Positions 9,356 to 64,000 of a stretch of DNA of 64,000 nucleotides are shown here, in pieces. The stretch lies in assembly GCF_004137085.1 (NCBI RefSeq), contig NZ_QYBC01000023.1, positions 1 through 64,000 on the forward strand, read 5' to 3'. The notes under the pieces are model-generated. The model worked only from the letters and a program-made list of their open reading frames with translations. It searched no databases and was not told where the DNA came from. This DNA comes from Lichenibacterium ramalinae. GTDB taxonomy: Bacteria; Pseudomonadota; Alphaproteobacteria; Rhizobiales; Beijerinckiaceae. Made by a program: the position numbers and the translations under genes. The number at the start of each line of letters is the position of its first letter. Position 1 is the first letter of the stretch.

Positions 9356-9961
9356 ATGCGCCCCAGCCTCGTCGTCGCCTCCCTGGTCGGCCTGCTCGCC
9401 GTCTCAGCCTGTTCCAAGCCCGAACCCGGCCAGGTCGGCCCGGCAGGGCCTACCGGCCCCGCCGGTCCCGCCGGCGCCCAGGGGCCGGTCGGCCCGGCCG
9501 GCGCGATGGGCCAGGCCGGCCCGGCCGGTCCCGCGGGGCCGCAGGGCCCGCAGGGCGCACCCGGGGCCAAGGGCGACATCGGGCCGGCCGGCCAGGCGGG
9601 CGCCAAGGGCGACACCGGAGCCGACGGCCAGGCGGGGGCTCCCGGCATCCCGGGACCGAAGGGTGACGCGGGTCCGGCGGGCCCGGTCGGTCCGAGCGGG
9701 CCCGTGGGTGCCGTCGGCCCTGCCGGCGCCATCGGCCCGGCAGGCCCCGCCGGCCAAGCGGTCGGGAAGCTCGCCATCACGCTGCGGCGCACGACCGGCC
9801 AGCCCGGCCAGGCCGTCACCGGCACCTGCGAGGCGGGTGAGCAGATCATCGCGGCGACCTGCGCGACGGGCGCGACCCTCGGTGAGGACGGGACGGCTTC
9901 CTGCCCGGCCCCGGCCGCGGGGGCGCCGGCCGTCCAGCTCACGGTCAGCTGCGCCAAGTGA
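9356..9961 (+). CDS. Collagen-like lipoprotein
   Basis: 201 residues. A lipoprotein signal peptide ends in LLAVSAC, with Cys about 19. From about residue 25 to 136 runs an almost unbroken Gly-X-Y series rich in proline, alanine and lysine-aspartate pairs ([23 protein letters not shown]), the pattern of bacterial collagen-like proteins that form triple helices. A C-terminal domain of about 60 residues with four cysteines ([13 protein letters not shown]) follows. The start at 9356 has AGGAG six bases upstream. It should be exported and membrane-anchored; a role in surface structure or adhesion is inference. It stands alone between unrelated genes. Confidence 0.85.
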
Positions 9962-10095
9962 GGCGCGCGTGAGCCTGTGAGCAGGCTCGCGTTCTCGGCC
10001 TGGCGCGGTCCGGCAACGGCCCGCGTCAGGCCGGCGATACCGGCGACGGCGGCCCTACCGGCAGCCGTCTCGGGCCGCCGAGACGCGTCGCGGCG

Positions 10096-10323
10096 TCACG
10101 TCCCGACGGGCGGTGTCCCGGCCTCGATGCGCTCGGCCTCGATCCAGGCGGCGTCGAGCAGGTCGACGAGCCCGGCCAGTCCCGCGGCGTCGGCGGTGGC
10201 GATGACGGCCTGCAGGGCGCGCAGCACCGAGCGGGCCGCCCTCACGGGATCCCCCTCCGGCGCCGTGCAGGCCCCACGGCGGATGCGGGGCACCGAGCGC
10301 TCGTAGACGTGGGGGCGTCGCAT
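10096..10323 (-). CDS. Hypothetical 75-residue protein
   Basis: Small predicted soluble protein beginning MRRPHVYERSVPRIRRG, then a helical, alanine- and leucine-rich half (SVLRALQAVIATADAAGLAGL) and an acidic end (AAWIEAERIEAGT). Family not recognised. The start at 10323 is favoured because the upstream extension of the frame has no protein-like character. It lies alone between two small exported proteins. A chance frame remains possible. Confidence 0.4.
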   Translation of the reverse strand: MRRPHVYERSVPRIRRGACTAPEGDPVRAARSVLRALQAVIATADAAGLAGLVDLLDAAWIEAERIEAGTPPVGT

Positions 10324-49367: not shown

Positions 49368-50476
49368 CGCCGCCTCTTGGTGAGGGTCGCCTTGGTTTCG
49401 GCCCCGCGGTTGGCGCCTCCCCGGCTCCCCGTCCTCGGTGGGCCCTTGTCCACCTCCAGCATGTCCCGGATGCGCCCCGCAGCCTCATCGTCGTCGTCGT
49501 CGAAGTCGCTCCGCGCCGTCCCGGGGTCCCGCACGTCGATCGCGGATTCGAAGGGGTCCCACGCATCCCCGCGTCGGCGTCGAGACTGCGCCGCCGCGTG
49601 GAAGTCGTCCATGGTGACGCTCGCGGCGCCGTTCGACATGGCGATGTTCGTCGCGTCGATGAGGTAGTTCATCGCCAGGCCGAGCTTGCCGGCCGACACG
49701 TGGTAGAGATGCGCGGCCAGGACGGGCGCATCGAGCTTCGAGCGCTGCCGGAAGGGCAGCATCCTGTCGATCGTGCCCAGGGCGAGGTGGAACTCGCCCG
49801 GCCCCGTGCCGTCACGCCACGCCGACGGTTCCAGCCACAAGGTAGGGAACTGTCCTCGTCCGACGAGGGATTCCTCCGACCTCACCACGAGGTCGATCGG
49901 TTCTGTTCCGACCAGGACCACGTTGCAGGAGCGCGCCTCGGCGAGGCCGATGAGGAAGCCCTTGACCTGATCGGCGGCGCTCGGGTTCGCGAACATCCAT
50001 TGGGCGTCGTCGATCACGACGAGCTCCACCCCGTACTCGACGACGTCGCCCCTCACGAGGTCGAGGAGGGCCGCAGCGCTCGCCCGCCCCTTTCGCCTGA
50101 CGCCGGCGGCGTCGGCCAGGGCCTGGGCGAAGACCAGAGGCGTCCATCGCTTGTTGCAGTCGACGTAGACCGCCCTCGCCATGACGGCCTCGTCCCCGTC
50201 CACCTCCCCGAGCGAGTTGCAGTAGGCCTTGACGGCCCAGGACTTCCCCACCCGCGACGGCCCGAGGATGCCGCACACGCTGCCGCGGCTGTGGCGGCCG
50301 CCGGGCACCGGCATGTGCTGAGATTGGAGGAACTTGACCGTCCGTTGGAACGTGGGCGTCGGCGCCAGCAGCTGCATGACCATGCGCTGCCGCTCGGCCA
50401 CGGGCTGGGACGCGGCCCACTCCCGTTCCTTCGCCGTCTCGAACGCGTCCACGTGGAAGTCGGGGAACGCCACCAT
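49364..50476 (-). CDS. tnsC: TnsC/TniB-type AAA+ transposition regulator
   Basis: 370 residues. Walker A GPSRVGKS at 72-79, Walker B VVIDDAQWMF at about 153-162, and Arg-rich sensor regions (VLVGTEPIDLVVRSEESLVG, then GRGQFPTLWLEP). TnsC forms ATP-dependent filaments on DNA and bridges TniQ and TnsB. The acidic/basic C-terminal tail (RSDFDDDDDEAAGRIRDMLE) is probably the TnsAB contact region. It begins one base after the tnsB stop. Confidence 0.9.
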   Translation of the reverse strand: MVAFPDFHVDAFETAKEREWAASQPVAERQRMVMQLLAPTPTFQRTVKFLQSQHMPVPGGRHSRGSVCGILGPSRVGKSWAVKAYCNSLGEVDGDEAVMARAVYVDCNKRWTPLVFAQALADAAGVRRKGRASAAALLDLVRGDVVEYGVELVVIDDAQWMFANPSAADQVKGFLIGLAEARSCNVVLVGTEPIDLVVRSEESLVGRGQFPTLWLEPSAWRDGTGPGEFHLALGTIDRMLPFRQRSKLDAPVLAAHLYHVSAGKLGLAMNYLIDATNIAMSNGAASVTMDDFHAAAQSRRRRGDAWDPFESAIDVRDPGTARSDFDDDDDEAAGRIRDMLEVDKGPPRTGSRGGANRGAETKATLTKRRR

Positions 50477-50477
50477 G

Positions 50478-53159
50478 CTATTGGTCCTTGGTCTCTGGTT
50501 CGGGATCGCCGGGTCCGGGCTCGGGCTTTGCCGGCTCGTTCGCGGGCGCCGGATGCACCGACCTGTGCCGCTGCGCCGCGCGGAGGCGGCTGAAGACGTC
50601 GGTCTCGTCGCGGGGCCCCGGGGGTGGCACCGGCCTCGTGGCGGTGGGGGGCGTCGGCGCGGCCTCGCCGACCGGCTTCGTCCTGGTCTCCCCCGCGGAC
50701 GGTTTCGCCGCGTCGCTCGTGACCTTCGGGTTCGGGCTCGACCGGAACGCGCCCATGTCGAGCGTGCCCCAGCCCCGCCGGTCCCTGATCGCCTCCATGT
50801 CCTCAGTCGTGAGGGGATCGGCGTCCGGTTGCGGTCGACGCTCCGCCTCGGCCTCGGCTTCGGCCGCCAGGCGGCGCGCCTCGATCCGGGCGGCCACCTT
50901 CGCGCCGCGGTCGACGCGCTCCGGCAGGGGTTGCGACGTGTCGAAGGTGTCGCGCTCGGTCCCGGCCGCGGCCGGCCCCGCGGCCGTCGCCGCCACGGTG
51001 TCGATCGACCCGGGCGGCGGCGGGTCGATGCCCGCGGGGGCCGTCGGGTCCACGAAGGCGGCCGACAGGGCCGGGGAGAACGCCGGGCGCGACACGGTCG
51101 AGGCCTCCTCCCGGCGACGCCCGTGCTCGAGCCAGCGCGCCAGCCTCTTGTCGTGGCCGTCCTGCCTGCGCTGCTGGAACAACAGCTCGACGTAGCGGTC
51201 GACCTCCTTGCGGGCCCTCATCAGCACGTCGACCGGGTCCCGGTCCGCCGCCCGCCTCAGATCGGCATCGGCGTTCGCCTTGATGACGTTGTGCTGGTGC
51301 AGCGTCAGCCCGCCCGCGTAGTCCATCCGCGTGGCCCCCACCTTGATGACGCGCCCGCCGTCGAAGGGGTTGGTGACGTAGACGTGGCCGATGTCGAAGG
51401 GGTCGCGCCTGACGAGGTACTTGCTCCCCTCGTGCTCCCTGCCCTGCCATTCCTTCTTGTCCCTGCCGGACTTATGCCCCGCCTTCCCGGTGATCGCGGC
51501 CAGGGCGATGGACTGGTACTGGATGTGATCCCAGTAGATCCCGCCGTCCTCGGTCACGTGGCAGCGCTTGCTGTCACCGGCGAGCCAGACGAACGTCTCC
51601 TCGCGCGGCAGCGGGGCCATCTCGACCTGGCCGATCTTCTCGTCCCACAGCACCTCGGGGATGCCCTTCAGCCTCTTCATGAAGCCGAGCCCCTCGTGTT
51701 GCCCGGGGTTGTGCTTGTCCGTGATCCAGCTCGTGACGAAGGCTCGCAGCCGGTCGATCGTCACGGTCGGCTTACCCGCCAGGTCGGCGTACCTCTTGCG
51801 CTCCTCGGCGTTGGAGAAGGTGGCCGCCGGCAGCTTGTGCATCGCCGCGTTGATGACGCCGATCAGGCGCTCCGTGCCGCCCTTCAGGCTCGGCTCGGCC
51901 GGGAGGAACTCACGGATCTCGAAGCCGAGCGCCGCCGACGTGCGCTCGATGTTGTTCCCGACGAAGTGGAGGGCCTTGTCGACGTAGAGCCTGGTCGGTC
52001 TGCCGAACATGGGCCAGGGGCGCAGGCTGGGGTACTCCGACATGTCCTTCGGATACATGGCGTGGCGCAGGCCGTTCACGAACGAGGCGAAGCTCGGCGC
52101 CTCGAAGCCGATCGACACCCCGAGGAACGCGCCGGTCGCCCGGTCGCGGAAGGCGATCAGGTCCGGGCGGCCGAAGATGACCTTCCTGACGTCGTCGACG
52201 ACGATCACGTCGCAGGGCGTGTGGTCGCATTCGACCTCGGACAGCGGCAGCTCCGGCAGCGGCCTCTCGTAGGACCTGGCGTGCTTGCGCCGCCCCCTCC
52301 GCTCGCCGAAGCGGGAATCGTCGCGGAGGAACGCATCGACCTCCTTCATGCGCCTCTGGAAGGTCCGCAGGGTCGGCATCGTGACCTCGGCGAGGGTCGG
52401 CTCCTCGTCGAGTTTGGTCCCGAGCAGCGCGAGGGCGAGCTTCTCGTGCCCCAGCAGGTCGGAACGTCCGAGCTCCTCGAGCCGGACCTTGAGTGCGGCG
52501 GCGGCGAAGCCCCGGGCGTCCTCGCCCGTGCCCTTCGCCAGCCCGAGCGCGTTCTTGACGCCTATGTCCACCATCTCGTCGACGAGCTCGGAACTCACCT
52601 TCCAGTCCCGGTTGCCGGTGTTCGGGGCGAAGTGGAGGCATTCGAGCGGGAACAGCTCACCCTGCTCCTCCCAGACGTCGACCCAGTTGAGCACGCTCTG
52701 GTAGCAGGGCGCCTTGGTGCCGCCGACCTTCTCGAAGGTGCGCGCGATCTTGGCTCCGACGTCGGGGCGCGACCGGGACGCGGGGTGCGGTTCGGCGTAG
52801 AAGGCGTCGACGAACGCCCGCCGCCATCGGCAGAGGGCGAGCTGCTCGGCAGACAGGTCGAGCAGGGTCGGCCGCGGGGTCACCGCCCTTCCCTCGGCGT
52901 CGAACACGACCCGGAACCGCCCCTGGCGGCACAGGAGGGCGATCTGCTCGTCCGTGAGCGTGGTCGGGCGGCCGAGGTCGTCCTCGAACTGGACGCGGCT
53001 CGCCACGCCGTCGTGGCGAGGCCACCTCTTCACCACGCTGAGGCGCCGGAGCGTCCGTTCGGCGAGGGCGCCCACCTCGACGATGATCCCCTTCGGCAGG
53101 AGGATCGTCGGGGCCGCGGCCTCGTGGGGGAGCGACCGCGTCGCGAGCGCCGCCTTCAA
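50478..53159 (-). CDS. tnsB: TnsB-type DDE transposase
   Basis: 893 residues. The retroviral-integrase-like catalytic core has Asp312 (EVECDHTPCDVIVVD), Asp394 (RLYVDKALHFVGNN) and Glu430 (SLKGGTERLIGVINAAMHKL), a DD35E spacing typical of TnsB/MuA. N-terminal helix-turn-helix domains (residues about 95-280) bind the transposon ends. A Mu-C-like beta-barrel follows the core, and the last 200 residues are disordered and rich in Ala/Pro, the TnsC-contact tail. It joins 3' ends to the target. Overlaps tnsA by four bases. Confidence 0.92.
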   Translation of the reverse strand: MKAALATRSLPHEAAAPTILLPKGIIVEVGALAERTLRRLSVVKRWPRHDGVASRVQFEDDLGRPTTLTDEQIALLCRQGRFRVVFDAEGRAVTPRPTLLDLSAEQLALCRWRRAFVDAFYAEPHPASRSRPDVGAKIARTFEKVGGTKAPCYQSVLNWVDVWEEQGELFPLECLHFAPNTGNRDWKVSSELVDEMVDIGVKNALGLAKGTGEDARGFAAAALKVRLEELGRSDLLGHEKLALALLGTKLDEEPTLAEVTMPTLRTFQRRMKEVDAFLRDDSRFGERRGRRKHARSYERPLPELPLSEVECDHTPCDVIVVDDVRKVIFGRPDLIAFRDRATGAFLGVSIGFEAPSFASFVNGLRHAMYPKDMSEYPSLRPWPMFGRPTRLYVDKALHFVGNNIERTSAALGFEIREFLPAEPSLKGGTERLIGVINAAMHKLPAATFSNAEERKRYADLAGKPTVTIDRLRAFVTSWITDKHNPGQHEGLGFMKRLKGIPEVLWDEKIGQVEMAPLPREETFVWLAGDSKRCHVTEDGGIYWDHIQYQSIALAAITGKAGHKSGRDKKEWQGREHEGSKYLVRRDPFDIGHVYVTNPFDGGRVIKVGATRMDYAGGLTLHQHNVIKANADADLRRAADRDPVDVLMRARKEVDRYVELLFQQRRQDGHDKRLARWLEHGRRREEASTVSRPAFSPALSAAFVDPTAPAGIDPPPPGSIDTVAATAAGPAAAGTERDTFDTSQPLPERVDRGAKVAARIEARRLAAEAEAEAERRPQPDADPLTTEDMEAIRDRRGWGTLDMGAFRSSPNPKVTSDAAKPSAGETRTKPVGEAAPTPPTATRPVPPPGPRDETDVFSRLRAAQRHRSVHPAPANEPAKPEPGPGDPEPETKDQ

Positions 53160-53893
53160 GGAAGCGGCGCCCTGGCCGGAGCCGAACCGACGACCGTCCC
53201 GGGGCCGAGGCGCTTATCGAGCTCCAGTGTCACCAGGCCCAGGATCGCCATCTCGACGATGCGGCTGAAGGCGCGGTCGGTGTGCGGGTGGGGCTGCGAC
53301 AGGGCCGCCTTCGCCGCGATGGCCGCCACGGTGGCGGGCAGCCCGAGGATGGCGATCGCCGCGTCGACGGCGGCCTCGGCCTCGGCATCCATATGCCAGG
53401 GACGCCGTTGCAGCATCACCCTCACGTTGCTCGCGCGCGGCTCGATGCGGAGGACGTCGCTGGTCACGGTCGAGAACACGGCCCCGCGGTCGGCGTAGCA
53501 CCGGGTCAGGACGTCGGCCCGAGCCTTCCACTTCGGCAGCATCGCGTACTTGGCGAGCTTGAAGTCCACGACGGCCACGCGGCCGTCGTCCATGCGGATC
53601 GCGAGGTCGGGGACGTAGGTCCGGATCTTGGTCCCGCGCCCGGGCACGTGCTCCTCGAAGTGGAGCCGGTGCGGCTGGGCCGCCATGAGCCGGCACCGCG
53701 GGTTCACCTCGAAGTGGCCGAAGCCGTCCATCTCGAGGTTGGTCTCGCCGCGAAGGGAGTCGAGCGTGCCCTTCTTGGTCGGGAACCGGCCCGGCATGGT
53801 CGGCCGTCCCGACCTGCGCGGGATGACACGCACGGGCAAGGCGCCCTTGCTGAGGCCGAAGTCCGGTGGGAACACCTCTGAATAGAGCGCCAT
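53156..53893 (-). CDS. tnsA: TnsA-type transposon-end nuclease
   Basis: 245 residues. Acidic residues near SLRGETNLEMDGFGHFEVNP, then TYVPDLAIR (Asp96) and VAVVDFKLAKY (Asp110, Lys112), form the restriction-enzyme-like E...D...DxK site of TnsA, which cuts the 5' strands so the element leaves by cut and paste. The C-terminal half (about 120-245) resembles the TnsA winged helix contacting TnsC. It is the first gene of the tns operon, preceded by a hairpin-separated gap. Confidence 0.85.
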   Translation of the reverse strand: MALYSEVFPPDFGLSKGALPVRVIPRRSGRPTMPGRFPTKKGTLDSLRGETNLEMDGFGHFEVNPRCRLMAAQPHRLHFEEHVPGRGTKIRTYVPDLAIRMDDGRVAVVDFKLAKYAMLPKWKARADVLTRCYADRGAVFSTVTSDVLRIEPRASNVRVMLQRRPWHMDAEAEAAVDAAIAILGLPATVAAIAAKAALSQPHPHTDRAFSRIVEMAILGLVTLELDKRLGPGTVVGSAPARAPLP

Positions 53894-54026: not shown

Positions 54027-55073
54027 TCAGTGCATCCGGCGCGTCTTCGGCGTCGGTGACGGCGCGGGGGCATGCGCCAGGGCGTCGGAAGCCTCGACCG
54101 ACCGGCGACCCTCGGCGGCAGCGCGACTCATCGCGTCGTCGAGGACCAGCTTGGCGCGCCGGGGCGGCAGCGCGGCGAGGCGCTCGAGGAGGTCTCGCCC
54201 TGGCTGCGGGTCGAAGAAGTCTAGGTAGACCTTGTTCAGGTCGGCGTAGACGCTGCGGACCACGGCGACGCGGTCGTCGTGCGCCATCGCCCCGACCTCG
54301 ACGACCGTGAGCCGGTCGACGATCGGCGCCGGGATGCCTTCGATGTCGTTCGCCGCGGCGATCCACATGACCCGGGAGGCGTCGATCGGGATCCCGAGAT
54401 GATCGTCGACGAAGCTGCGGGAGCCCTCGGGTTCGAGGAGGCCGTAGAACGGACGGTAGAGGTCGCCGCCGACGTGGTGCGGGGGCGGCTTGTCGATCTC
54501 GTCGACGAGGATCAGCGGGTTCGCCACCGCTTCGGTCAGAAGCGCCTTGGCGACCAAGCCCGGCGCCCCGGCCCGCCAGAGCGGGTGACTGCCGGTGAGC
54601 GAATCGCCCAGGGTGGCGAGGTTCATCGCGAAGGCCCTGAACGGCACGGCGAGCGCCGCGGCGAGCCGTGCCAGCAGCCAGGTCTTACCGATCCCCGGCG
54701 GCCCGAGCAGCAGCAGCGGCGGCAGGCCCGTGGGCACCCCGATCGTCTGCGCCGCCCGCAGGCGGCGGACGACCAAGTCGATGACGGGGCTCATGTGCGG
54801 GGCGCGGGCGGCGAGACGCTGCACGTCCGTGACGGCGGCCGCCGTGGGGTGGGCGAGGGTGCGCCACCTGCCGGCCTCGCCGGCTTCGAGCAGCGCCTCG
54901 AGCGCCGCGTGGCGGATGTCCAGCCCGCTCCCCTCGCTGACTTCGGGATCCCCTTGAAAGGGCCTTCGACCCCGTCCGAGGGCAGCCTCGACGTCGCGGA
55001 GACCGTAGAGCGCGTGAGGCGTCAGCTTTGCCGGCGGGGTCGTCTCTGGTCTCGGTCTCGCCTTCGACGCCAT
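54027..55073 (-). CDS. Lon-type AAA+ ATPase without protease domain
   Basis: 348 residues. Walker A GPPGIGKT (124-131), Walker B PLILVDEIDKPPP (about 186-198), sensor-1 Asn in IAAANDIEGIP (Asn242), Arg finger in PIVDRLTVVEV (Arg254). The sequence VDEIDK ... GLLEPEGSRSFVDDHLGIPI is the Lon AAA+ pattern, but no Lon peptidase Ser-Lys dyad domain follows. All ATPase residues look intact. Start 55,073 (MASKARPR) is one of several near an ATG-rich GGGGG site. It lies just upstream of tnsA, same strand; a DNA or protein remodeller for the transposon is inference. Confidence 0.85.
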   Translation of the reverse strand: MASKARPRPETTPPAKLTPHALYGLRDVEAALGRGRRPFQGDPEVSEGSGLDIRHAALEALLEAGEAGRWRTLAHPTAAAVTDVQRLAARAPHMSPVIDLVVRRLRAAQTIGVPTGLPPLLLLGPPGIGKTWLLARLAAALAVPFRAFAMNLATLGDSLTGSHPLWRAGAPGLVAKALLTEAVANPLILVDEIDKPPPHHVGGDLYRPFYGLLEPEGSRSFVDDHLGIPIDASRVMWIAAANDIEGIPAPIVDRLTVVEVGAMAHDDRVAVVRSVYADLNKVYLDFFDPQPGRDLLERLAALPPRRAKLVLDDAMSRAAAEGRRSVEASDALAHAPAPSPTPKTRRMH

Positions 55074-55224
55074 GGCCCATCCCCCGTGCCGGTTCGGCTC
55101 GAGGGTCACGAGACCCTCGGGGACCATGGCGAACGGACGGCGAGATCTTCGGGCGTGGTCGGCCGGCAGGGACGTCGGTCAGGGGTGGGGGGTGAGAGAC
55201 GGGGCGGGGTTCCGCAGCCCGGCG

Positions 55225-55980
55225 TCACATCGCGAAGTGGCCGAGCATGGCGGTCGCGTGTCCCCGGACGGCGTCGTGGTCCGCGGCCGCCCAGATGGCG
55301 ATGACGTCACGCCAGGTCCCATGGACGAAGTCCACCTCGTCACCGGCGACTGCGGTTGCGAACAGGTCGATCTCCCGTCGATGGCGGGCGTGGGCGGCAG
55401 CCGTCACCGCGCGCCCGTCAGGCCACGTAGGCGGCTCGCAGAAGAGATACAGCAGGGTCGCTCGCTTGCGGGCGCGGGCCCCGGCTGTCCGCAGGCCGAA
55501 GCCATGCTTCACGAGCTGCGCCGCGTCCAGGTGCTCGAAGGTCAGGCTTGCGTCCCGTAAGCCGTCGCGGACGCGTTCGAAGCCTCGCATGCGGTCACCC
55601 CAGACCGGGCGCCAGTACGCCTCCGAGAGGCTGGGTGCCCCGTGCGATCTGAACGGCTCGTACCTCTTCGACTCGATCCCCACGACGGCGTCGGGGGTGT
55701 CGACGAGGACGTCGAGGCATGGGTGGCGACCGCCCGCCCACGGGAACCGCGCGACCCCCTCGAGCTTCATGGACCGAGCCGGCCAGGCCGCGCCGACGCC
55801 CGGCAACGGCGGGAGAAGCTCCGGCGTCCGCAGGAAGAAGCCGAAGCCGTTGGCGACGAGTGCCGACGAGGATTCGGCGCTGGCGATCTTGCCGCTGTCC
55901 ACCTCGTTGCCCGGCGCGGATCGGTAGACCTCGAGGATCGCTCCCGCGTCGAGGTGTGGAAGCAGCACGTCGTCCAGCAT
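55225..55980 (-). CDS. PD-(D/E)XK nuclease-like protein
   Basis: 251 residues. HPCLDVLVDTPDAVVGIESKRYEPF gives Asp90 or Asp94, Glu103 and Lys105, the core of PD-(D/E)XK nucleases; the IESK-Y-E context recalls the PGN_0703 group of putative restriction endonucleases. Later segments (LTFEHLDAAQLVKHGFGLRT, ATLLYLFCEPPTWPDGR) are globular. Start 55,980 is favoured because GAGGAGG lies seven bases upstream. It sits between the two AAA+ ATPase genes on the same strand. It could nick or cut target or foreign DNA; activity is inferred. Confidence 0.7.
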   Translation of the reverse strand: MLDDVLLPHLDAGAILEVYRSAPGNEVDSGKIASAESSSALVANGFGFFLRTPELLPPLPGVGAAWPARSMKLEGVARFPWAGGRHPCLDVLVDTPDAVVGIESKRYEPFRSHGAPSLSEAYWRPVWGDRMRGFERVRDGLRDASLTFEHLDAAQLVKHGFGLRTAGARARKRATLLYLFCEPPTWPDGRAVTAAAHARHRREIDLFATAVAGDEVDFVHGTWRDVIAIWAAADHDAVRGHATAMLGHFAM

Positions 55981-56152
55981 CTGATCGCCTCCTCGCCGCA
56001 ACCGAGGGTCCTACCAGTCGCACAACGAATGATGAAGATGGGCGAGCCGCCGATCGCTGCAGCGAGCCGACAACCCGTCATCCTCCTCCCCGGTCGTCAG
56101 CGACGCCCCGGTGACGGATGGGGTGCCGGCGCCTTCCGCGGCCTCGCAGCCG

Positions 56153-57076
56153 TCACCGAGACGTCGCGTCGGGCGCGGGCAGCGCCGGCAGCGTGACGAT
56201 CTCCTCGGGCCGGAGCGCGTACGGGGGCTCGAGCCCCCGCATGCGCGCGATGTGGGTGAGCGCTCCCATCCGGCCGCCGGACGCCCGATGCAGGTCGGCG
56301 ACCTCGGCGGGATCGCGCGTGCCGAAGAGCATGCCGACGACGGTCGCGAAGGCCGCGTCGTCCTCCAAGGGGTCGAGCCGGATGACCTGCGTCGACATGC
56401 AGGCGGCCACCACTTCCGCCAGCTCGGGCGAGCCGATCAGCACGGTCGACACGGCGTGCGCGACCATCCTCGCAGGATAATCCAGTAGCTGCTCCAGTGC
56501 GTCCCGCCGGCGCGACGACGTGACCCCCAGGAGCCGATCCGCGTCGTCGACGAAGCAGACCGAGGTCCGACGCGTCGGATGACCCGCGATGTTGCCCGGG
56601 CTGTGCCACGCGGGAGACCCCATGGTCCCACCGTGTTTGTCCGGGCGTGGCACCATGGTCACGGCGACCGTGGGATGGGTCACCGACGTCTCGCGCAGCG
56701 CCCGGTCCACGACCGACCCGGAGACCCAGGTCGCGGGCTGGCACATCTCGGGACAGGCCCCGTAGTGTCGGACCATCGCCTGTTCCCAGCTCGATCCCCG
56801 CGCCGGATCGGCCCAGACGCGGTTCGCCGGCCCATTCGTGAGCAGGTCGCAGGCTACCTCCCTCCGCGCGGCGTGTCCGAAGCGTCGGGCGATGGCGCTC
56901 TTCCCGGTCCCGTGTTCGCCGCACAGCACCGTGAGGGGCAGCCAGGGGCGCGGCTCCTGGCGCGAGACGCGCAGCAGCGCCCAGAGCGCGGCCGTGGCCC
57001 GTGCCGTCACCGACGTCTCGACGAAGAGCTCGCCGTCCACCATGTCCGCCCGCGGCGTGAAACCGTCCCGACCCAT
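56153..57076 (-). CDS. Second TniB/TnsC-like AAA+ ATPase
   Basis: 307 residues. Walker A GEHGTGKS (53-60), Walker B SVCFVDDADRLL (Asp177, Asp178), sensor in TVLIGSPELAEVV and helical lid (LHRASGGRMGALTHIARMRG). This layout is that of TniB/IstB-like transposition ATPases rather than the Lon type. It is separate from, and only distantly like, the TnsC at 49.4-50.5 kb. ATG 57,076 has GGGGAG about nine bases upstream; a GTG at 57,109 is the alternative. A second regulator for alternative targets is one idea. Confidence 0.8.
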   Translation of the reverse strand: MGRDGFTPRADMVDGELFVETSVTARATAALWALLRVSRQEPRPWLPLTVLCGEHGTGKSAIARRFGHAARREVACDLLTNGPANRVWADPARGSSWEQAMVRHYGACPEMCQPATWVSGSVVDRALRETSVTHPTVAVTMVPRPDKHGGTMGSPAWHSPGNIAGHPTRRTSVCFVDDADRLLGVTSSRRRDALEQLLDYPARMVAHAVSTVLIGSPELAEVVAACMSTQVIRLDPLEDDAAFATVVGMLFGTRDPAEVADLHRASGGRMGALTHIARMRGLEPPYALRPEEIVTLPALPAPDATSR

Positions 57077-57216
57077 GTCCCTGCTCCCCGTTCGACGAGG
57101 TGTGACCACCCCTCACGAGCAAGGCGATCCGTCGCGGTCTTCGTCGGGAGTGGGCGCACGACGCCGTGCCAGGGTCGATGGACAAGCGCAAGCGCCCTGG
57201 GGCGGCGCCCCGTCGG

Positions 57217-57594
57217 TCAGGCCGACCGCCTCGTGCCGACGTGCGCGTCGCACCGCGTCGTCGGCCAAGCCGCCCGGTCCCGGCGCAGGTGACCGGGTCC
57301 ACCGCAGCGGACGCACGTCGACGCGGCGCGGCGCCGGGCGCCCTCGACGGCTGCCTCGACAGCGCTATCGACTGCCGTGTCGTGCACGCCGTGGACGACG
57401 AGGTCGCAGCGCAACGCGCCGTCTCGTTCCGTGATGTCGAGCACGTCGACGCTGGCCGTGGGGTATGCTGCCACCGCTCTGCCTATGTCGCGCAGCAGGT
57501 CGGCGACGATGTCGGACCAACCGGCCTCGACGTAGCCGATCGGTGCGGGGGTGAGCCAGGCGAGGTCACCGGCGATGTCGTTCACGAAGGGCAT
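57217..57594 (-). CDS. GLRFY/C2CH zinc-binding protein, module copy B
   Basis: 125 residues. A GW...I...D helical start (AGWSDIVADLLRDIGRAV), a beta region (RDGALRCDLVVHG), a helix (AVEGARRRAASTC), then CVRCGGPG ... WPTTRCDAH, a C-x2-C ... C-x2-H zinc ribbon. The same domain is fused to the exonuclease in module copy A. Similar domains (KFGGLRFY ... CE-CG-PG ... LCDxH) occur in phage and plasmid proteins of unknown role. Start 57,594 has GAGGGG seven bases upstream, 11 bases after the exonuclease stop. Confidence 0.72.
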   Translation of the reverse strand: MPFVNDIAGDLAWLTPAPIGYVEAGWSDIVADLLRDIGRAVAAYPTASVDVLDITERDGALRCDLVVHGVHDTAVDSAVEAAVEGARRRAASTCVRCGGPGHLRRDRAAWPTTRCDAHVGTRRSA

Positions 57595-57605
57595 GGCGGC
57601 GCCCC

Positions 57606-58523
57606 TCAGCGGCACGGCGCGTCGGCGCGCACCGAGAAGCGTTCGCGAGCGGTGACGCGGCGCAGGAGCGGCTGCGCGCCCGGGTCACCATAGACGTGAT
57701 CTCGGAGGTGCGACACTTCGGCGTCGACGTTGGCCTCCGGCACGTCCCGCCACCACGCCCGCGGTGTCCGGCCGTCGCCGCTGGCCCACCTGTAGCCGCG
57801 GGCCTTCAGCACGTCCTTGCGCTCGAACGGTGAGGCGGTCGCCCAGACCCGCACGGTGACCTGGGCTGCCGTTCCCATCATCAGCTCGAAGCCCGTGGCG
57901 CCGAGGGTGAGCGGAAGCTGTAGGAGGTGGAGGAGCGCGGCGCAGTCGTCCAGCGCCCTATGACCGTCGTGGTACGACCGGCGCTCGGCGAGGAGCTGGC
58001 CGAGCCTCCGCCCCTCGAAGCCTTCGGCCCGCCAGTCGACCTGGGTCAGCGAGCACGCCCAGGGGAGCTCCGCGAACCACGGCCAGGCGCGCTCGACCAC
58101 GGGCCGGTCGAAGCCCGCGTTGTGGGCGATGACGATCGAGGCGCCCGCCACGAAGCGGGTCACCGCGTCGTCGTCGATGGTCCGGCCCGCGACGTCGTTG
58201 TCCGTGATCCCGGTGAGCCTGACGACGTCGGGCGGGATGGGGCGGCTCGGCTGCCGGAGCGCGGAGAAGCCGTCGACGACATGGGCGACTCTGATCTGCA
58301 CCGGGTCGAAGGCAAAGCGCAGCATGCCGAGTTCGATCACCTCGTCGGCGTCGCCGAGGCCCGTCGTCTCGGTGTCCAGCACGATCCCGACGGCGAGGCC
58401 GGCGGCCGCGCGTTCCGCGTCGGTCATCGTCGACGGCTCGGGCCGCGGCACGCGCCTGAGGATCCGGTAGTTCCCGGTCCTGTCGAGGATCCGGGCCAAC
58501 GTCTCGCTGACCTCGTCCACCAT
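57606..58523 (-). CDS. DnaQ-like DEDDh 3'-5' exonuclease, module copy B
   Basis: 305 residues. Exo I LDTETTG (Asp50, Glu52), Exo II HNAGFD (Asp139), Exo III HRALDD (His188, Asp193): a complete DEDDh site. A C-terminal domain with KDVLKARGYRWASGDGRTPR AWW follows from about residue 224, as in a known group of exonuclease proteins. It should degrade single DNA or RNA strands 3' to 5'. AGGAGG seven bases before ATG. Same strand as, and directly before, the zinc-domain gene. About nine residues in ten match copy A over the first 220. Confidence 0.85.
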   Translation of the reverse strand: MVDEVSETLARILDRTGNYRILRRVPRPEPSTMTDAERAAAGLAVGIVLDTETTGLGDADEVIELGMLRFAFDPVQIRVAHVVDGFSALRQPSRPIPPDVVRLTGITDNDVAGRTIDDDAVTRFVAGASIVIAHNAGFDRPVVERAWPWFAELPWACSLTQVDWRAEGFEGRRLGQLLAERRSYHDGHRALDDCAALLHLLQLPLTLGATGFELMMGTAAQVTVRVWATASPFERKDVLKARGYRWASGDGRTPRAWWRDVPEANVDAEVSHLRDHVYGDPGAQPLLRRVTARERFSVRADAPCR

Positions 58524-58620
58524 GCTCCGCCTCCTGCCGACCCGGCGACGGCTCGGCCGTCACGGTGAAGGCGACCACGGGGACGGGTTTTCGGGAGCTT
58601 GGCGGACGGATCCTCCGTTC

Positions 58621-58998
58621 TCAGAAGACCAGGTCGTCGGGCGCGCCGTGGGCGTCGACGCCGGCGACGGCCGCCGCGACGAGCGCCGTGGCGACGGCGT
58701 GATGGAGGTCCGCGCGGGCCTCGCCGCGGTGGTGGCGCGGCATGCTCTCGATCAGCAGCCATCTGGCCTCCCAGGCGGACACCACCTCGGCGGCCCGGTC
58801 CTCCCAGGTGGCGAACGCCGCCGCGGGGACGCACACGACGGCGTCCGGTTCCTCGCCGGACGGCGGCACCGACACCACGAGCGCCAGGCGCATCATGCCA
58901 GGCGAGGCCCGGCCGGCGATGAAGCGTTGGCACGCCCCGAGGCCTCCCTCGAAGAGGGCTCGTGTCCGACGCGGCAGCTCGACGACGTAGGTGCGCAT
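58621..58998 (-). CDS. Small conserved module protein, copy B
   Basis: 125 residues; family not recognised. It shares with the proteins at 63,332 and 61,724 a core: D(A)VVCVP, then W(E)..A.E...AWE.RWLLI.S.P, R...RADLHH, and a hydrophobic end AAAVAGVD. A small alpha/beta fold is likely; no signal peptide. It stands 97 bases upstream of the exonuclease gene, the same relative place as copy A's small gene, so the pair was duplicated together. Confidence 0.65.
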   Translation of the reverse strand: MRTYVVELPRRTRALFEGGLGACQRFIAGRASPGMMRLALVVSVPPSGEEPDAVVCVPAAAFATWEDRAAEVVSAWEARWLLIESMPRHHRGEARADLHHAVATALVAAAVAGVDAHGAPDDLVF

Positions 58999-59251
58999 CG
59001 ACGATCCTCGGCCGAAGGGCCACGCGACGTGCGGGGCTGCCTCGGTCCGAAGGCGACGAGTGGGACGACTTGTCGGGAACCGATCCGGCCCCGTCCGAGG
59101 GGCTCGGGGGACGCTCTGTCTGCGAAGGCCCCAGGCTGCGCCTCGACCCTTGCGCACCCTCTGCAACCCTGGGCCTTTCCAGCCTCGACACAACGGTCCG
59201 TTAGCTCTGGCGTGCGACCTATGACCTTCCCGTCGTCCCGGTGAGGTCGTT

Positions 59252-61672
59252 ATGCTGAAGGTCCTGGGTTGCGTCGTGCACGAGCACGACCTTCGGCTCG
59301 TGGCCATGTCGGCCGTGATCTGCGTTCTGGGCTGCCTCACGACGACCACGCTGCTGGCGAGGGCCGGCGAGACGGCGAGGCGAGACGGGCGCCCCTGGCT
59401 CGTGGCGGCGGCAGCGGTGCTGGGCTGCAGCGTGTGGTCGCTCCACTTCGTCGCCATGCTGGCCTTCATGCCCGGTCTGGAGATGGCCTACGGCCTGGGC
59501 CTGACGGCGCTCTCGATCCTCGTCGCCGTCGGCGGGGCCCTGATGGCCCTCTTCGCCTGGAAAGCGCCTGCCACTCGTACGGCCCGTGTCGCCCTCTCCG
59601 GAGCGCTGCTCGGGCTCGCGATCTCGGGCATGCACTACGTCGGCGTCGCAGCCATGACGTTCTCGGGCTTCCTCATGTTCGACCGCAACTACGTGGTGGC
59701 TTCCGTCGTGGTCAGCGTCGTCTGCTCCACGCTCGCCATGGCGAGGGCGGAGAACCTGACCTCGACGGGCCGGCGGCTCGAGGTCGGCGGCTGGCTGACG
59801 CTCGCGATCTGCGGGCTGCACTTCACCGGCATGACGGCGATCACCGTCGCACCTGGCACGGCGGAGGTGACCAAGGGCACGATCCTCGGTACGAGCACCC
59901 TCGCCATCGCGGTGGGTGGCGTGAGCGTTGCCATCCTGATCGCGAGCCTGATGGCGATCATCGTCGAGCGGCATCTGGCACGGCGCTCCCTCCGAGACCT
60001 TGGCCGCATGCGCCTCATGAGCAACCTCGCCCAGGAGGTGCTCTTCATTCACCGCGACGGCGTCGTGATCGAGGTGAACAACGCCGGGGAGCGCCTGTTC
60101 AAGGCCTCGGCCGAGGACATCATCGGCCGGCCCGTGCTGAGCCTCTTCACCAAGGACAGCGCGCCGGCGATGATCCGGCGGGAGCGGTGTCCGCCCATCG
60201 ACCGACATCCCGAGGAGATGGACTTCCAGGCCGTCGACGGCAGCCATGTCGCCGTCGAGCTGTCTTGCCAGCCGATCGAGTACCTCGGCAAGTCGGCCAC
60301 GGTGGTCGCGCTCCGCGACATCACCGATCGCAAGCGCGACGAGGCCCGCATCCGGCACCTCGCGCGCCACGACGCGCTGACCAACCTACCGAACCGCTAC
60401 AACCTCCGTGAGCGGCTCGACATCGCGCTCGACACGGCGGCGCAGGACAGGAGCGCCGTAGCCGTCGTCTACATCGACCTCGATCGCTTCAAGCCGGTCA
60501 ACGACCTCCACGGCCACGCCGCCGGCGACGCGGTGTTGATCCAGGCGTCGAAGCGCATCCTCGCGGAGATCCGTTCGACCGATACGCTGGCCAGAATCGG
60601 CGGGGATGAGTTCGTGATGATCCTGACGAGCCAGCCTCAGCCCGAGAAGGCCTCGATCGTCGCGACGCGCATCATCGAGGCGCTTCGTCGGCCGTTCCAG
60701 GTCGAAGGGCATCGGATCGAGATCGGCGCCTCGGTCGGCGTCTCCCTCTATCCCGAGGATGGGGCCGACGCCGACGCCCTGATGCGCGCCGCCGACGCCG
60801 CCATGTACCGGGCCAAGGAGGAGGGTCGCGGCGCGGTCCGCTTCTACGAGGCCGTCATGAACGCCCAGCTCCAGGCGAGGCTGCAGCTCGAGCAGGAGCT
60901 GGCCGGGGCTACCGAACGGGGCGAGCTGGTGCTCCACTACCAGCCGATCGTGAACGGCGTCACGGGCGAGGTGGAGACCTTCGAGGCCCTGATCCGGTGG
61001 ATGCATCCCACGCGGGGCATGGTGCCCCCGATGGAGTTCATTCCCATGGCGGAGGAGTGCGGCCTGATCGACGGGATCGGACGGTGGGTGATCGAAGCGG
61101 CCTGTCGCGAGGCGGCCGGGTGGTCCCACCCCTGGCGCGTCTCGTTCAACGTGTCCCCGCGCCAGTTTCAGCACACGGACATCTGCGCCGTGCTCGGCGA
61201 CGCTCTGCGGACCCACGGGATCGCCCCGGCCCGGGTCGTCGTCGAGGTGACCGAGGGCATCCTGATCGAGGACGCCGACGAGGCGGTCGCGACCCTCAAC
61301 CGCCTGCGCGAGATGGGCGTGCGGATCGCCCTCGACGACTTCGGCACCGGCTACTCGAGCCTGAGCTACCTGCAGCTCTTCCAGTTCGACAAGTTCAAGA
61401 TCGACAAGTCGTTCGTGAGGACGCTCGGCCAGAGCGACCGTGCGCTGACGCTCACCCGGACGATCGTCAACCTCGGCCACAACCTCGGCCTCCAGGTCAC
61501 GGCGGAGGGGGTGGAGACCCAGGCCCAGCTCGACATCCTCCGATCGCTCGGCTGCGACCAGATCCAAGGCTACCTCGTGGCGCGCCCGGCTCCGATCGAT
61601 GCCTTCACCGACCTGGATCGGCTTCGGACCAAGGCCTTGTTCGGGCGGGATCGGCCACGGTTGTCCGCGTAG
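59252..61672 (+). CDS. MHYT-PAS-GGDEF-EAL cyclic-di-GMP enzyme
   Basis: 806 residues. The N-terminal seven-span MHYT domain has SLHFVAML, SGMHYVGVA and CGLHFTGMT, thought to bind a gas or redox ligand through copper. A PAS domain follows (about 260-380; QEVLFIHRDGVVIEVNNAGE). GGDEF is at 450-454 (RIGGDEFVMI) and EAL at 578-580, with DDFGTGYSSLSYLQ later; both enzyme motifs are intact, so it may make and break c-di-GMP. It is the only plus-strand gene between 54 and 64 kb and separates the two modules. Probably cargo. Confidence 0.93.
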   Translation: MLKVLGCVVHEHDLRLVAMSAVICVLGCLTTTTLLARAGETARRDGRPWLVAAAAVLGCSVWSLHFVAMLAFMPGLEMAYGLGLTALSILVAVGGALMALFAWKAPATRTARVALSGALLGLAISGMHYVGVAAMTFSGFLMFDRNYVVASVVVSVVCSTLAMARAENLTSTGRRLEVGGWLTLAICGLHFTGMTAITVAPGTAEVTKGTILGTSTLAIAVGGVSVAILIASLMAIIVERHLARRSLRDLGRMRLMSNLAQEVLFIHRDGVVIEVNNAGERLFKASAEDIIGRPVLSLFTKDSAPAMIRRERCPPIDRHPEEMDFQAVDGSHVAVELSCQPIEYLGKSATVVALRDITDRKRDEARIRHLARHDALTNLPNRYNLRERLDIALDTAAQDRSAVAVVYIDLDRFKPVNDLHGHAAGDAVLIQASKRILAEIRSTDTLARIGGDEFVMILTSQPQPEKASIVATRIIEALRRPFQVEGHRIEIGASVGVSLYPEDGADADALMRAADAAMYRAKEEGRGAVRFYEAVMNAQLQARLQLEQELAGATERGELVLHYQPIVNGVTGEVETFEALIRWMHPTRGMVPPMEFIPMAEECGLIDGIGRWVIEAACREAAGWSHPWRVSFNVSPRQFQHTDICAVLGDALRTHGIAPARVVVEVTEGILIEDADEAVATLNRLREMGVRIALDDFGTGYSSLSYLQLFQFDKFKIDKSFVRTLGQSDRALTLTRTIVNLGHNLGLQVTAEGVETQAQLDILRSLGCDQIQGYLVARPAPIDAFTDLDRLRTKALFGRDRPRLSA

Positions 61673-61723
61673 CGGAGGGGGCCGGGCATGGTCTTCGTCC
61701 TACGACGTCGGTCGTAGGGGCGG

Positions 61724-62104
61724 TCAGATCCCGACGTGGTCGCCGGCCTCGTCGAGACCGGTCACGGCGGCGGAGATCATCGCTATAACGACGGCGCCGA
61801 CAAGGTCTCCGCGCACCGCCTCGCGCTGGCTGGCGGGGGTCGAGTCGATGAGGAGCCAGGACCGGTCCCAGGCCTCGACCAGCTCGTCGGCCAGGGTCTC
61901 GACTTTCTGGTAGAGCCTGAGCGGCACCGCGACCATGACGTCCGGCCCTGGGTCTGAGGGCACGTCGGGCCACCACAGCACTAGGCGGGTCGAAGGCGAC
62001 CCGACGTGCCGCTCGACGAAGTCGAGCGCGAGGGCGAGCCCGTCGGCCTGGAGGAGCGTCCGGCTATGGCGGCGCGGGGTCTCGGTCACGACGAAGTCCG
62101 GCAT
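61724..62104 (-). CDS. Small conserved module protein, divergent third copy
   Basis: 126 residues. Shares the core of the other two copies (DVMVAVP, ELVEAWDRSWLLIDSTP, REAVRGDLVGAV, ISAAVTGLD) but differs in its first 60 residues. It follows the fused exonuclease gene by 42 bases on the same strand, where copy B has the zinc-domain gene instead. No recognised family or signal peptide. Confidence 0.6.
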   Translation of the reverse strand: MPDFVVTETPRRHSRTLLQADGLALALDFVERHVGSPSTRLVLWWPDVPSDPGPDVMVAVPLRLYQKVETLADELVEAWDRSWLLIDSTPASQREAVRGDLVGAVVIAMISAAVTGLDEAGDHVGI

Positions 62105-62146
62105 GGGGGTCCCCTCAAGATCGCGGGGCCTCGTGCCCCATGTCGA

Positions 62147-63253
62147 TCAGGCGCTCCGTGCCGCGCGTTTTCGGGCGTCCGACCTCAGCGTCCCCCCGTC
62201 CTCGGTCGCGTGTCTGTCGCAGAGCGTCGTCAGCCAACCGTCGACGTCCCGCGTCCGTCCGGGGGCGCCGCAGCGCTCGCAGGTCCGGGCGGATCGCTCC
62301 TCGGCTCGGTCGATCATCGCCCGCACCACGCGCCACACGGCGTCCAGGGGGCCCGGCACCCCGGCGAGCGCGAAGAAGACGCGCAGAGATCCGAACTTGG
62401 ATTTCGTCGTGAAGCCGGTCACGCCCACCCGGGCGTCCGGGTGGTCTGCGGCGACCTCGTCCATGACGATCTCGAGGGCGTCGATCATGTCGACGAAGAT
62501 TCCCACCCATCCTCGGCTGAGGCTGGCGTAGGGGTCGACGGATCGGATCCAGGCGTGGCCTCGCAGGAGCAGGTCGTACTCGGCCTGCGTGACCTGGGCC
62601 GCCTCGCGCATCATCAGCTCGAAGCCCGTGACACCGAGCGTGAGCGGAAGTTGCAGGAGATGGAGGAGCGCGGCGCAGTCGTCGAGCGCCCTGTGGCCGT
62701 CGTGGTACGAGCGGCGCTCGGCCAGGAGCTGGCCCAGCTTTCTGCCCTCGAAGCCTTCGGACCTCCAGTCGACTTGCGTCAGCGAACAGGCCCAGGGCAG
62801 CTCCGCGAACCACGGCCAGGCGCGCTCGACCACGCACCTATCGAACGCCGCGTTGTGGGCGATGACGATCGAGGCGCCCGCCACGAAGCGCCCCACGGCG
62901 TCGCTGTCGATGGTCTGGCCCGAGACGTCCTTGTCGGTAATGCCCGTGAGCCGGGTGACGTCGGGCGGGATCGACCTCCTCGGCTGACGGAGCGCGGAGA
63001 AGCCGCCGACGACATGCGCGACCCTGATCTGCACCGGGTCGAAGGCGAAGCGCAGCATCCCGAGTTCGATCACCTCGTCGTCGACGCCGAGGCCCGTCGT
63101 CTCGGTGTCCAGTACGATCCCGACGGCGAGTCCCGCCGCCGTGCGTTCCGCGTCGGTCATCGTGGATGCCGTCGGCGACGGCACGCGCCTGAGGATGCGG
63201 TAGTTCCCGGTCCTATCCAGGATCCGCGCCAGGGTCTCGCTGACCTCGTCCAT
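62147..63253 (-). CDS. DEDDh exonuclease fused to a GLRFY/C2CH zinc domain, module copy A
   Basis: 368 residues. Residues 1 to about 221 match copy B closely, with LDTETTG, HNAAFD and HRALDD intact. After AAQVT the sequence departs: the KARGYRW domain of copy B is absent and a GW...KSKFGSLRVFF ... CERCGAPG ... CDRH zinc domain is attached instead. So one polypeptide here holds what copy B makes from two genes. GGGAG precedes the ATG. Predicted 3'-5' exonuclease with added nucleic-acid or protein contact. Confidence 0.85.
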   Translation of the reverse strand: MDEVSETLARILDRTGNYRILRRVPSPTASTMTDAERTAAGLAVGIVLDTETTGLGVDDEVIELGMLRFAFDPVQIRVAHVVGGFSALRQPRRSIPPDVTRLTGITDKDVSGQTIDSDAVGRFVAGASIVIAHNAAFDRCVVERAWPWFAELPWACSLTQVDWRSEGFEGRKLGQLLAERRSYHDGHRALDDCAALLHLLQLPLTLGVTGFELMMREAAQVTQAEYDLLLRGHAWIRSVDPYASLSRGWVGIFVDMIDALEIVMDEVAADHPDARVGVTGFTTKSKFGSLRVFFALAGVPGPLDAVWRVVRAMIDRAEERSARTCERCGAPGRTRDVDGWLTTLCDRHATEDGGTLRSDARKRAARSA

Positions 63254-63331
63254 GCCTGTCTCCCACGATTAGCCTGACCGTCAGGTGAAAGGCGACCGGG
63301 GCTGTGGATTTTCGGGAGCGCTCGGCGAGGT

Positions 63332-63703
63332 CTAGAAGTCGTCGTCGATCGGCCGACCGTTCCGGTCGGCGCCGGTGATGGCCGCCGCGATCAGGGCGAT
63401 GGCGATGACGTGATGGAGGTCGGCGCGGACCTCGTCCCGGTGGCGCCGCGGCGCGCTGTCGATCAGCAGCCACCGGCTTTCCCAGGCGGCGATCGCCTCG
63501 GTCGCACGAGCCTCCCAGTCGCCGACGACGTCCGCGGGCACGCACACGACGGCGTCTGGACCTGCGACGGGCGGCGGCGCCTCGACGACGAGCCCGAGGC
63601 GCGTCAGCGCGGTCTTGCGCCGGATGAAGGCGAGGCACTGTACCCGCTCGCCCTCGAACAGGGGCCGCGCCTCGCGCGGCAGCTCGACCACGCAGGCCTT
63701 CAT
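63332..63703 (-). CDS. Small conserved module protein, copy A
   Basis: 123 residues. Very like the 58,621 protein: CVVELPREARPLFEGE at the start, then DAVVCVPADVVGDWEARATE, AWESRWLLIDSAPRRHR and RADLHHVIAIALIAAAITGA. It lies 78 bases upstream of the fused exonuclease gene. Both small-to-exonuclease gaps share an AAGGCGACC...TTTTCGGGAGC-like block, further evidence of duplication. Function unknown. Confidence 0.65.
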   Translation of the reverse strand: MKACVVELPREARPLFEGERVQCLAFIRRKTALTRLGLVVEAPPPVAGPDAVVCVPADVVGDWEARATEAIAAWESRWLLIDSAPRRHRDEVRADLHHVIAIALIAAAITGADRNGRPIDDDF

Positions 63704-63928: not shown

Positions 63929-64000
63929 TCAGCGGCCTCGTCGGATCATCGCTTCGAACAGCAGGATTTCGGGATCGGCTTCTCGAGACGGCGCGGCCGG
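63929..64000 (-). CDS. 3' end of a gene cut by the right edge
   Basis: A minus-strand frame enters from the right edge and stops at TGA (63,929-63,931). Its readable end is SREADPEILLFEAMIRRGR, which looks protein-like. It continues the run of minus-strand genes. Too short to identify. Confidence 0.4.
   Translation of the reverse strand, partial: PAAPSREADPEILLFEAMIRRGR

Follow-up and report, generated by a model that had tools for sequence, protein, structure and literature searches.

The window analysed here, positions 1–64,000 of contig NZ_QYBC01000023.1 (C58) of Lichenibacterium ramalinae, carries two related copies, A and B, of a small gene array centred on exonucleases of the PRK09182 type. 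The exonuclease of copy B (exoB) is, judging from its sequence, a chimera derived from that family, in which a zinc domain replaces the usual C-terminal part. The array is read here, with a probability of about 0.42, as a genus-restricted mobile-island cassette that combines a PRK09182-type DEDDh exonuclease with the zinc family GW-zinc and a Lon-like AAA protein, accompanied by a fast-evolving gene, SP1, and plausibly acting in defence or the processing of foreign DNA. All coordinates are those of C58, positions above 64,000 lying on the same contig outside the window; G, C and L numbers denote comparison genomes, contigs and extracted loci, respectively, and "GW-zinc" and "SP" are family names coined here.

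Two exonuclease copies and a chimera

Copy A consists of SP1-A (58621..58998; 125 amino acids), exoA (57606..58523; 305 amino acids) and the GW-zinc protein znA (57217..57615; 132 amino acids), the last encoded by its own gene, which overlaps exoA by 10 nucleotides. Copy B, likewise on the minus strand, comprises SP1-B (63332..63703; 123 amino acids), exoB (62147..63253; 368 amino acids) and SP2-B (61724..62104; 126 amino acids), a member of a second SP branch that is 38% identical to SP1-B and 67% to SP2-3, a gene found further along the contig. SP1-A is a small protein with no assigned function, and in the searches made its family was confined to this genus. By sequence, exoA represents the PRK09182 type of DEDDh 3'-5' exonuclease in full length, family C-terminal domain included; it matches model NF006615 (PRK09182) with 331 bits against a cut-off of 207 over model positions 16–306 of 307, thus belonging to the family over the whole model, and RNase_T with E=1e-13. 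exoB scores 229 bits, also above the cut-off, over model positions 16–226 only, and is therefore not a whole-model member. Its exonuclease part spans residues 1–222 and is followed by the GW-zinc domain (about 62147–62593), which is 71% identical over 131 amino acids to GW-3, a free-standing GW-zinc gene of the same contig. Between znA and this domain the identity is 37% (E=3e-12), with Cys/His positions common to both; a zinc-knuckle hint for znA in Pfam (E=0.0096) stays below the cut-off. Among the proteins examined, exoB alone joins GW-zinc to a DEDDh exonuclease.

These measurements largely bear out what the initial annotation had described by eye. The exonuclease pair, put there at about 90% identity over 220 residues, has 199 of 222 residues identical (E=1e-132), and the homologous small gene said to precede each exonuclease at a similar distance does so, with gaps of 97 (A) and 78 nucleotides (B) and 55% identity between the two SP1 proteins. 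The homologous zinc domain seen with each exonuclease is there too, but in copy B it is fused and forms no separate gene. The observation is thus confirmed; the SP2 branch and the pieces beyond the window were missing from its count. At the DNA level, SP1 and exonuclease of the two copies match at 80% over 1141 aligned columns (E=0), far beyond chance.

Both exonucleases retain the DEDDh residues. Across 26 aligned exonuclease sequences, the ExoI aspartate and glutamate are present in 26/26 and the ExoII aspartate and the ExoIII histidine and aspartate in 25/26; only L134, which a contig end truncates, departs from this. The check proposed earlier, whether catalytic residues are kept in relatives, therefore came out in favour: all five stand in both copies and in each of the 25 uncut sequences. 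Two C-terminal tryptophan positions are conserved in 24/24 sequences scored; L134 and exoB were left out, the letters of exoB aligned there stemming from its GW-zinc domain. Both proteins are accordingly predicted to be DEDDh 3'-5' exonucleases. In a FastTree phylogeny of 25 sequences exoA groups with exoB as its sister (local support 0.999), followed by G111_exo1 (0.961; 51% identity) and then by a protein from the viral contig L155 (0.893). Compared with the DnaQ-like PRK09182/NF006615 subfamily of DEDDh proteins, exoA spans nearly the whole model and has the catalytic residues, whereas exoB carries the nuclease part only, joined to GW-zinc, and several exonuclease copies stand with SP genes at this locus.

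Probable copying history and selection

Similar DNA within the contig runs past the window to about 72.85 kb. Followed leftwards on the minus strand, the array begins with a 1092-amino-acid protein (72875–76153; L009:15875–19153) with IrrE-like, UvrD and PD-(D/E)XK domains, followed by GW-3 (72447–72878), SP2-3 (71989–72369) and SP1-3 (71490–71867), all minus-strand genes outside the window. Then come a 7-kb block (about 64.36–71.47 kb), which separates SP1-3 from the N-terminal remnant of a truncated third exonuclease (63929..64078, minus strand, 49 codons and a stop; 63929..64000 inside the window), and SP1-B, exoB and SP2-B. Further left, a GGDEF-type gene on the opposite strand (59252..61672, 806 amino acids), outside the module, stands between copies B and A, after which SP1-A, exoA and znA complete the series. 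This intervening open reading frame probably encodes an MHYT-GGDEF-EAL-like regulator; over its first 749 bases it matches C74, another contig of this genome, at 78%. The 1092-amino-acid protein, a fusion of an IrrE-like peptidase domain, a UvrD helicase and a PD-(D/E)XK nuclease, lies directly upstream of GW-3.

The locus combines three SP1 genes related to one another with three likewise related exonuclease genes, one of which is truncated. Local duplication, presumably in place, would have produced the chimeric exonuclease; the sequence of events and the way in which they came about are likewise inferred. The exoB GW-zinc domain followed by SP2-B resembles the free-standing GW-3/SP2-3 pair, and exoB may have arisen when SP1 and the first 222 exonuclease codons were joined to such a GW-SP2 pair, in an order of events that is likewise a matter of interpretation. 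With 37% identity, znA is far removed from the GW domains of copies B and 3, so that copy A probably retains an older exonuclease–zinc pair. Positions 63987–64140 match the start of exoA and its upstream spacer at 78%. The truncated exonuclease keeps 62 nucleotides of the SP1–exonuclease spacer and SP1-3 ends about 20 nucleotides from the block; this would be simply explained if a former SP1-3/exo-3 pair has been parted by the block. The block itself recurs in G086 (contig C119) as two neighbouring pieces, 95% and 90% identical, with a small gap and quite different flanks; no part of the array was matched in the 39 kb of that contig compared. Partial copies of it, about 77–88% identical, also occur in C11 of the same genome and in G111, marking it as a frequently moved or copied segment. 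For the word sizes searched, neither the block nor the GGDEF-type gene is flanked by exact, directly oriented shared words that might represent target-site duplications.

Substitution rates were compared by simple pairwise, tree-free estimates of the Nei-Gojobori type, with ranges from bootstrap. Synonymous divergence (dS) between copies A and B is 0.40 (0.29–0.52) for the exonuclease and 0.48 (0.33–0.68) for SP1, and between copies B and 3 it is 0.68 for SP1, 0.63 for SP2 and 0.58 for GW-zinc. Neighbouring genes thus share dS within wide ranges, which indicates matching ages and fits block-wise copying. Gene conversion was considered as a cause of the higher exonuclease identity and found unneeded, as dS is alike in the two genes, with overlapping ranges, and it is the nonsynonymous divergence (dN) that differs, being about five times higher in SP1 than in the exonuclease core. 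The dN/dS ratio is 0.17 (0.10–0.27) for the exonuclease pair and 0.68 (0.41–1.10) for the SP1 pair, bootstrap ranges reported as non-overlapping; other SP and GW pairs give 0.29–0.42. The exonuclease core appears to be under constraint, and the idea of a selected function put forward in the initial annotation gains from this ratio together with the retained DEDDh residues. Its suggestion of a changed specificity would also be compatible with the rapid divergence of SP1 and the exchange of the C-terminal domain.

Distribution of the families and the link to AAA proteins

Outside C58 and a G111 cluster, 26 exonuclease loci were examined: 20 strong matches (E up to 1e-15), two viral contigs and four of 431 plasmid records, weaker matches, mostly other DnaQ-like proteins, being left outside the count. 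Neither SP nor GW-zinc was found beside the exonuclease in any of the 26 (0/26), in the stretches covered, which for L058, L127 and L134 were under 8 kb. SP adjoins an exonuclease gene in 3/9 cases, all at this locus. Co-occurrence of the three parts, on which the earlier proposal of a module had been made to depend, is hence rare, and that proposal is largely refuted in this respect; no conserved SP–exonuclease–GW-zinc module was found across several genomes.

SP itself was detected in 3/298 genomes of the family, all in this genus (six matches in the genome under study, two loci in G013 and one in G086), in 1/397 genomes of an order-wide draw, again the same genome, and at one locus of the genome collection, in Lichenibacterium minor RmlP026. 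At the four SP loci outside C58 a PRK09182-type exonuclease is present in 0/4, GW-zinc in 1/4 and an exonuclease VII-like gene in 2/4. SP1-B had no match in Pfam, PADLOC or plasmids, SP1-A, SP1-B and SP2-B none in PHROG, and the family none in viral contigs, with a best E of 1.2 among solved structures. One G013 SP gene is split over two frames (L054:8543–8904), by a frameshift or a sequencing error.

Plasmids of Ensifer, Agrobacterium, Methylobacterium and Methylocystis encode proteins with the GW-zinc pattern GW...KEKFGxLR...CxxCGxxG...CxxH, or one like it, and the G111 GW-zinc protein matched 30 plasmid records and 10 of 50,697 phage records. Matches to phrog_8013, a family with no assigned function, were weak (E 0.0003–0.006); solved structures gave nothing convincing (best E 0.14), and no viral contig was confirmed. 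A PRK09182-type exonuclease was present at 0/4 plasmid GW-zinc loci examined, out of the 30 matching records. On a Methylocystis parvus plasmid (L160:4935–5357) the GW-zinc gene has a ZacC-type helicase on one side and a PD-(D/E)XK/UvrD pair on the other, and the Agrobacterium fabrum plasmid pAt12D13c has three GW-zinc frames within 6 kb (L158:4950–5895, 9369–10271).

The association that recurs is that of exonuclease and GW-zinc with a Lon-like AAA+ ATPase, encoded in the window at 54027..55127 on the minus strand (Lon model E=3e-26, far below that model's cut-off). Among 199 genomes its best matches are in G111, G013 and G127 (48–53%), and the G111 (48%) and G013 (50%) proteins both bear an N-terminal GW-zinc domain. 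G111, one other genome of the genus and not part of the draw that gave the 20 strong exonuclease matches, encodes two exonucleases, a GW-zinc protein and a GW-zinc::AAA fusion in series, so that all three families are present both in the window and in G111. An AAA gene of this type is also found near a GW-zinc gene in the Methylobacterium plasmid pLVM1, and in G083 one adjoins a weaker GW match. The GW models were silent in 20 AAA and other regions scanned, and the link between GW-zinc and AAA is thus limited to part of the AAA family.

Proposed function, alternatives and neighbouring genes

DEDDh exonucleases degrade DNA ends in the 3'-5' direction, zinc and C-terminal domains bind substrates or partners, and AAA proteins carry out ATP-driven remodelling. 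In the cassette proposed, the exonuclease would act on foreign or damaged DNA by trimming its 3' ends, guided to its substrate or partner by the zinc domain (in copy A, by the usual C-terminal domain). Remodelling or licensing of the complex, at the expense of ATP, would fall to the AAA ATPase, and SP1 may be a partner protein that determines specificity or keeps the nuclease in check. The likeliest setting is defence, held with moderate confidence at best and on the basis of the neighbourhood. PADLOC profiles identify a type I restriction-modification system and Druantia III (DruH, DruE) at 77845–84208 and 86079–95742 (L010), about 5–23 kb past the last GW-zinc gene and 14–32 kb past exoB. 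An island with these systems and the UvrD/PD-(D/E)XK protein was counted for a defence-type cassette; this defence-like neighbourhood supports the setting and no function. The defence role suggested in the initial annotation accordingly holds as regards position, its sole support, and the interpretation given there is, overall, partly supported.

Several observations weigh against the cassette. The set of exonuclease, GW-zinc and AAA was found in two genomes only, and in the window two unrelated genes stand between znA and the AAA gene: one encoding a TniB/AAA_22-like ATPase (56153..57109, minus strand; AAA_22 E=7e-8, TniB E=0.013, below cut-off) and one of 258 amino acids (55225..56001, minus strand) with a very weak match to Pfam REase-ARP (E=0.034, below cut-off). 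The G013 stretch holds a fused GW-zinc::AAA gene, a 224-amino-acid gene and SP, with no exonuclease in that stretch. At L152, a further G013 locus and one of the 26 examined, an exonuclease of the other branch and a more distantly related AAA match are 5 kb apart, and GW-zinc is absent. The second G111 exonuclease is 39% identical to exoA and sits on another tree branch, so the two G111 exonucleases are no recent copy pair. An SP1 ratio of 0.68 is compatible with relaxed constraint, 68 of 1000 bootstraps reaching 1. In PADLOC, SP1-B and the G111 and Methylocystis GW-zinc proteins had no match, the exonuclease matched only a generic DEDDh profile and the weak candidate PDC-S48, and membership of a known anti-phage defence system was not found. 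The quality of the AlphaFold models was insufficient for use (mean pLDDT, the predicted local distance difference test, 60.8 for SP1-B and 50.7 for exoB). Locus order, finally, comes from a 76-contig assembly.

That fragmentation and the repetitive locus might suggest that the duplication is an assembly error, which is extremely improbable: the copies differ by about 10–28% in DNA, and so are not one copy assembled twice, and the 7-kb block is continuous, apart from the small gap, and 90–95% identical in another genome. Neutral decay of copy B and the SP genes in an unstable island with recombining repeats, without selected function, would account for the truncated exonuclease, the high SP1 dN/dS and the blocks that break the array; the low exonuclease ratio (0.17) and open frames with third-position guanine-plus-cytosine contents of 0.86–0.93 in SP1-B, SP2-B, exoA, exoB and znA make this quite unlikely. 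The array could instead be an accessory for recombination or repair of mobile DNA. On phages, plasmids and islands its exonuclease would then trim ends that are to recombine, and the duplicates would be by-products of island turnover. PRK09182-type genes are indeed common on alphaproteobacterial plasmids (431/72,556 PLSDB records match exoA), and in the viral contig L155, home of the next relative after G111_exo1, the exonuclease gene comes after genes that are, judging from their translations, presumably of PD-(D/E)XK, RecT and SMC type. We nevertheless regard this explanation as rather doubtful, as it needs neither the chimera nor the GW-zinc/AAA linkage, and the four of 431 plasmid exonuclease loci examined lack them.

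The neighbour to the left is a Tn7-like core of TniQ, TnsC, TnsB and TnsA genes (46812..53893, minus strand, as copy A), which is not a demonstrated partner. Copy A, the AAA genes and TnsA–TniQ follow one another on one strand within about 12 kb, in keeping with an exonuclease that processes transposition intermediates as part of the Tn7-like element, as the initial annotation had suggested. This is very unlikely. Tns genes had no match on the 15.3-kb G111 contig with the related exonuclease/GW-zinc/AAA cluster; TnsA had none in four of the five other genomes of the genus and, in the fifth, a match of only 27% (E=1e-4), being essentially limited to its own genome among six, and the role in transposition was set aside. 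No convincing ends of the element emerged when clustered end repeats were sought with a Python scan. Tn7-like transposons are reported to carry defence genes as cargo (PMC8649781); a Tn7-like core beside candidate defence genes is likewise seen here, whereas no element ends were found and the cassette is not established as cargo. The diDNases are DEDD nucleases concentrated in genomic islands near defence systems, NrnC-like DEDDy dinucleases of Gram-positives (PMC11706625); exoA and exoB share with them the DEDD superfamily and a position in mobile islands near defence systems, but are on a different branch (DEDDh, not DEDDy). Among open-licence papers, neither a description of this gene set nor a paper on PRK09182 was found. 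Beside the core, a 713-amino-acid protein (43966–46107) resembles in its C-terminal part ADP-ribosyl-dinitrogen-reductase hydrolase and the ADP-ribosylarginine hydrolase Tri1, neither match reaching its cut-off.

A bolder form of the cassette reading would make it an undescribed defence system of lichen-associated alphaproteobacteria, with a DEDDh exonuclease, a GW-zinc adaptor, a Lon-like AAA protein and SP as variable sensor or restrainer, diversifying by copying of SP and exonuclease in place and by a C-terminal swap to GW-zinc; this is unlikely. Should the cassette reading hold, it would describe a nuclease cassette that diversifies in place, with a conserved catalytic core, a fast-changing small partner and an exchanged targeting domain. 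The comparison of copy A with chimera B would then offer a direct experimental handle on the targeting of DnaQ-like exonucleases in mobile islands, and the GW-zinc/AAA/exonuclease set would join the candidate defence systems for testing. If it fails, the locus is a case of island turnover making gene chimeras.

Other gene groupings recur in these islands. An AAA gene, a gene of about 320 amino acids and one resembling the exonuclease VII large subunit cluster at L054:3059–8292, L120:7837–12878, L115, L116 and L117 (G013, G111), and at L052:4586–7350 (G086) the latter two only are present in the stretch covered; the exonuclease VII-like protein matches Pfam with E=1e-49 in L054 and 7e-45 in L052. 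The pair of AAA and approximately 320-amino-acid genes extends to other genera of the family (L138, L144, L146, L147, L149, L151). A family of about 195–260 amino acids without assigned function recurs as well (L055:8902–9576, L068:13600–14391, L053:16388–16975), near genes that we take, from their translations, to be XRE-like regulators.

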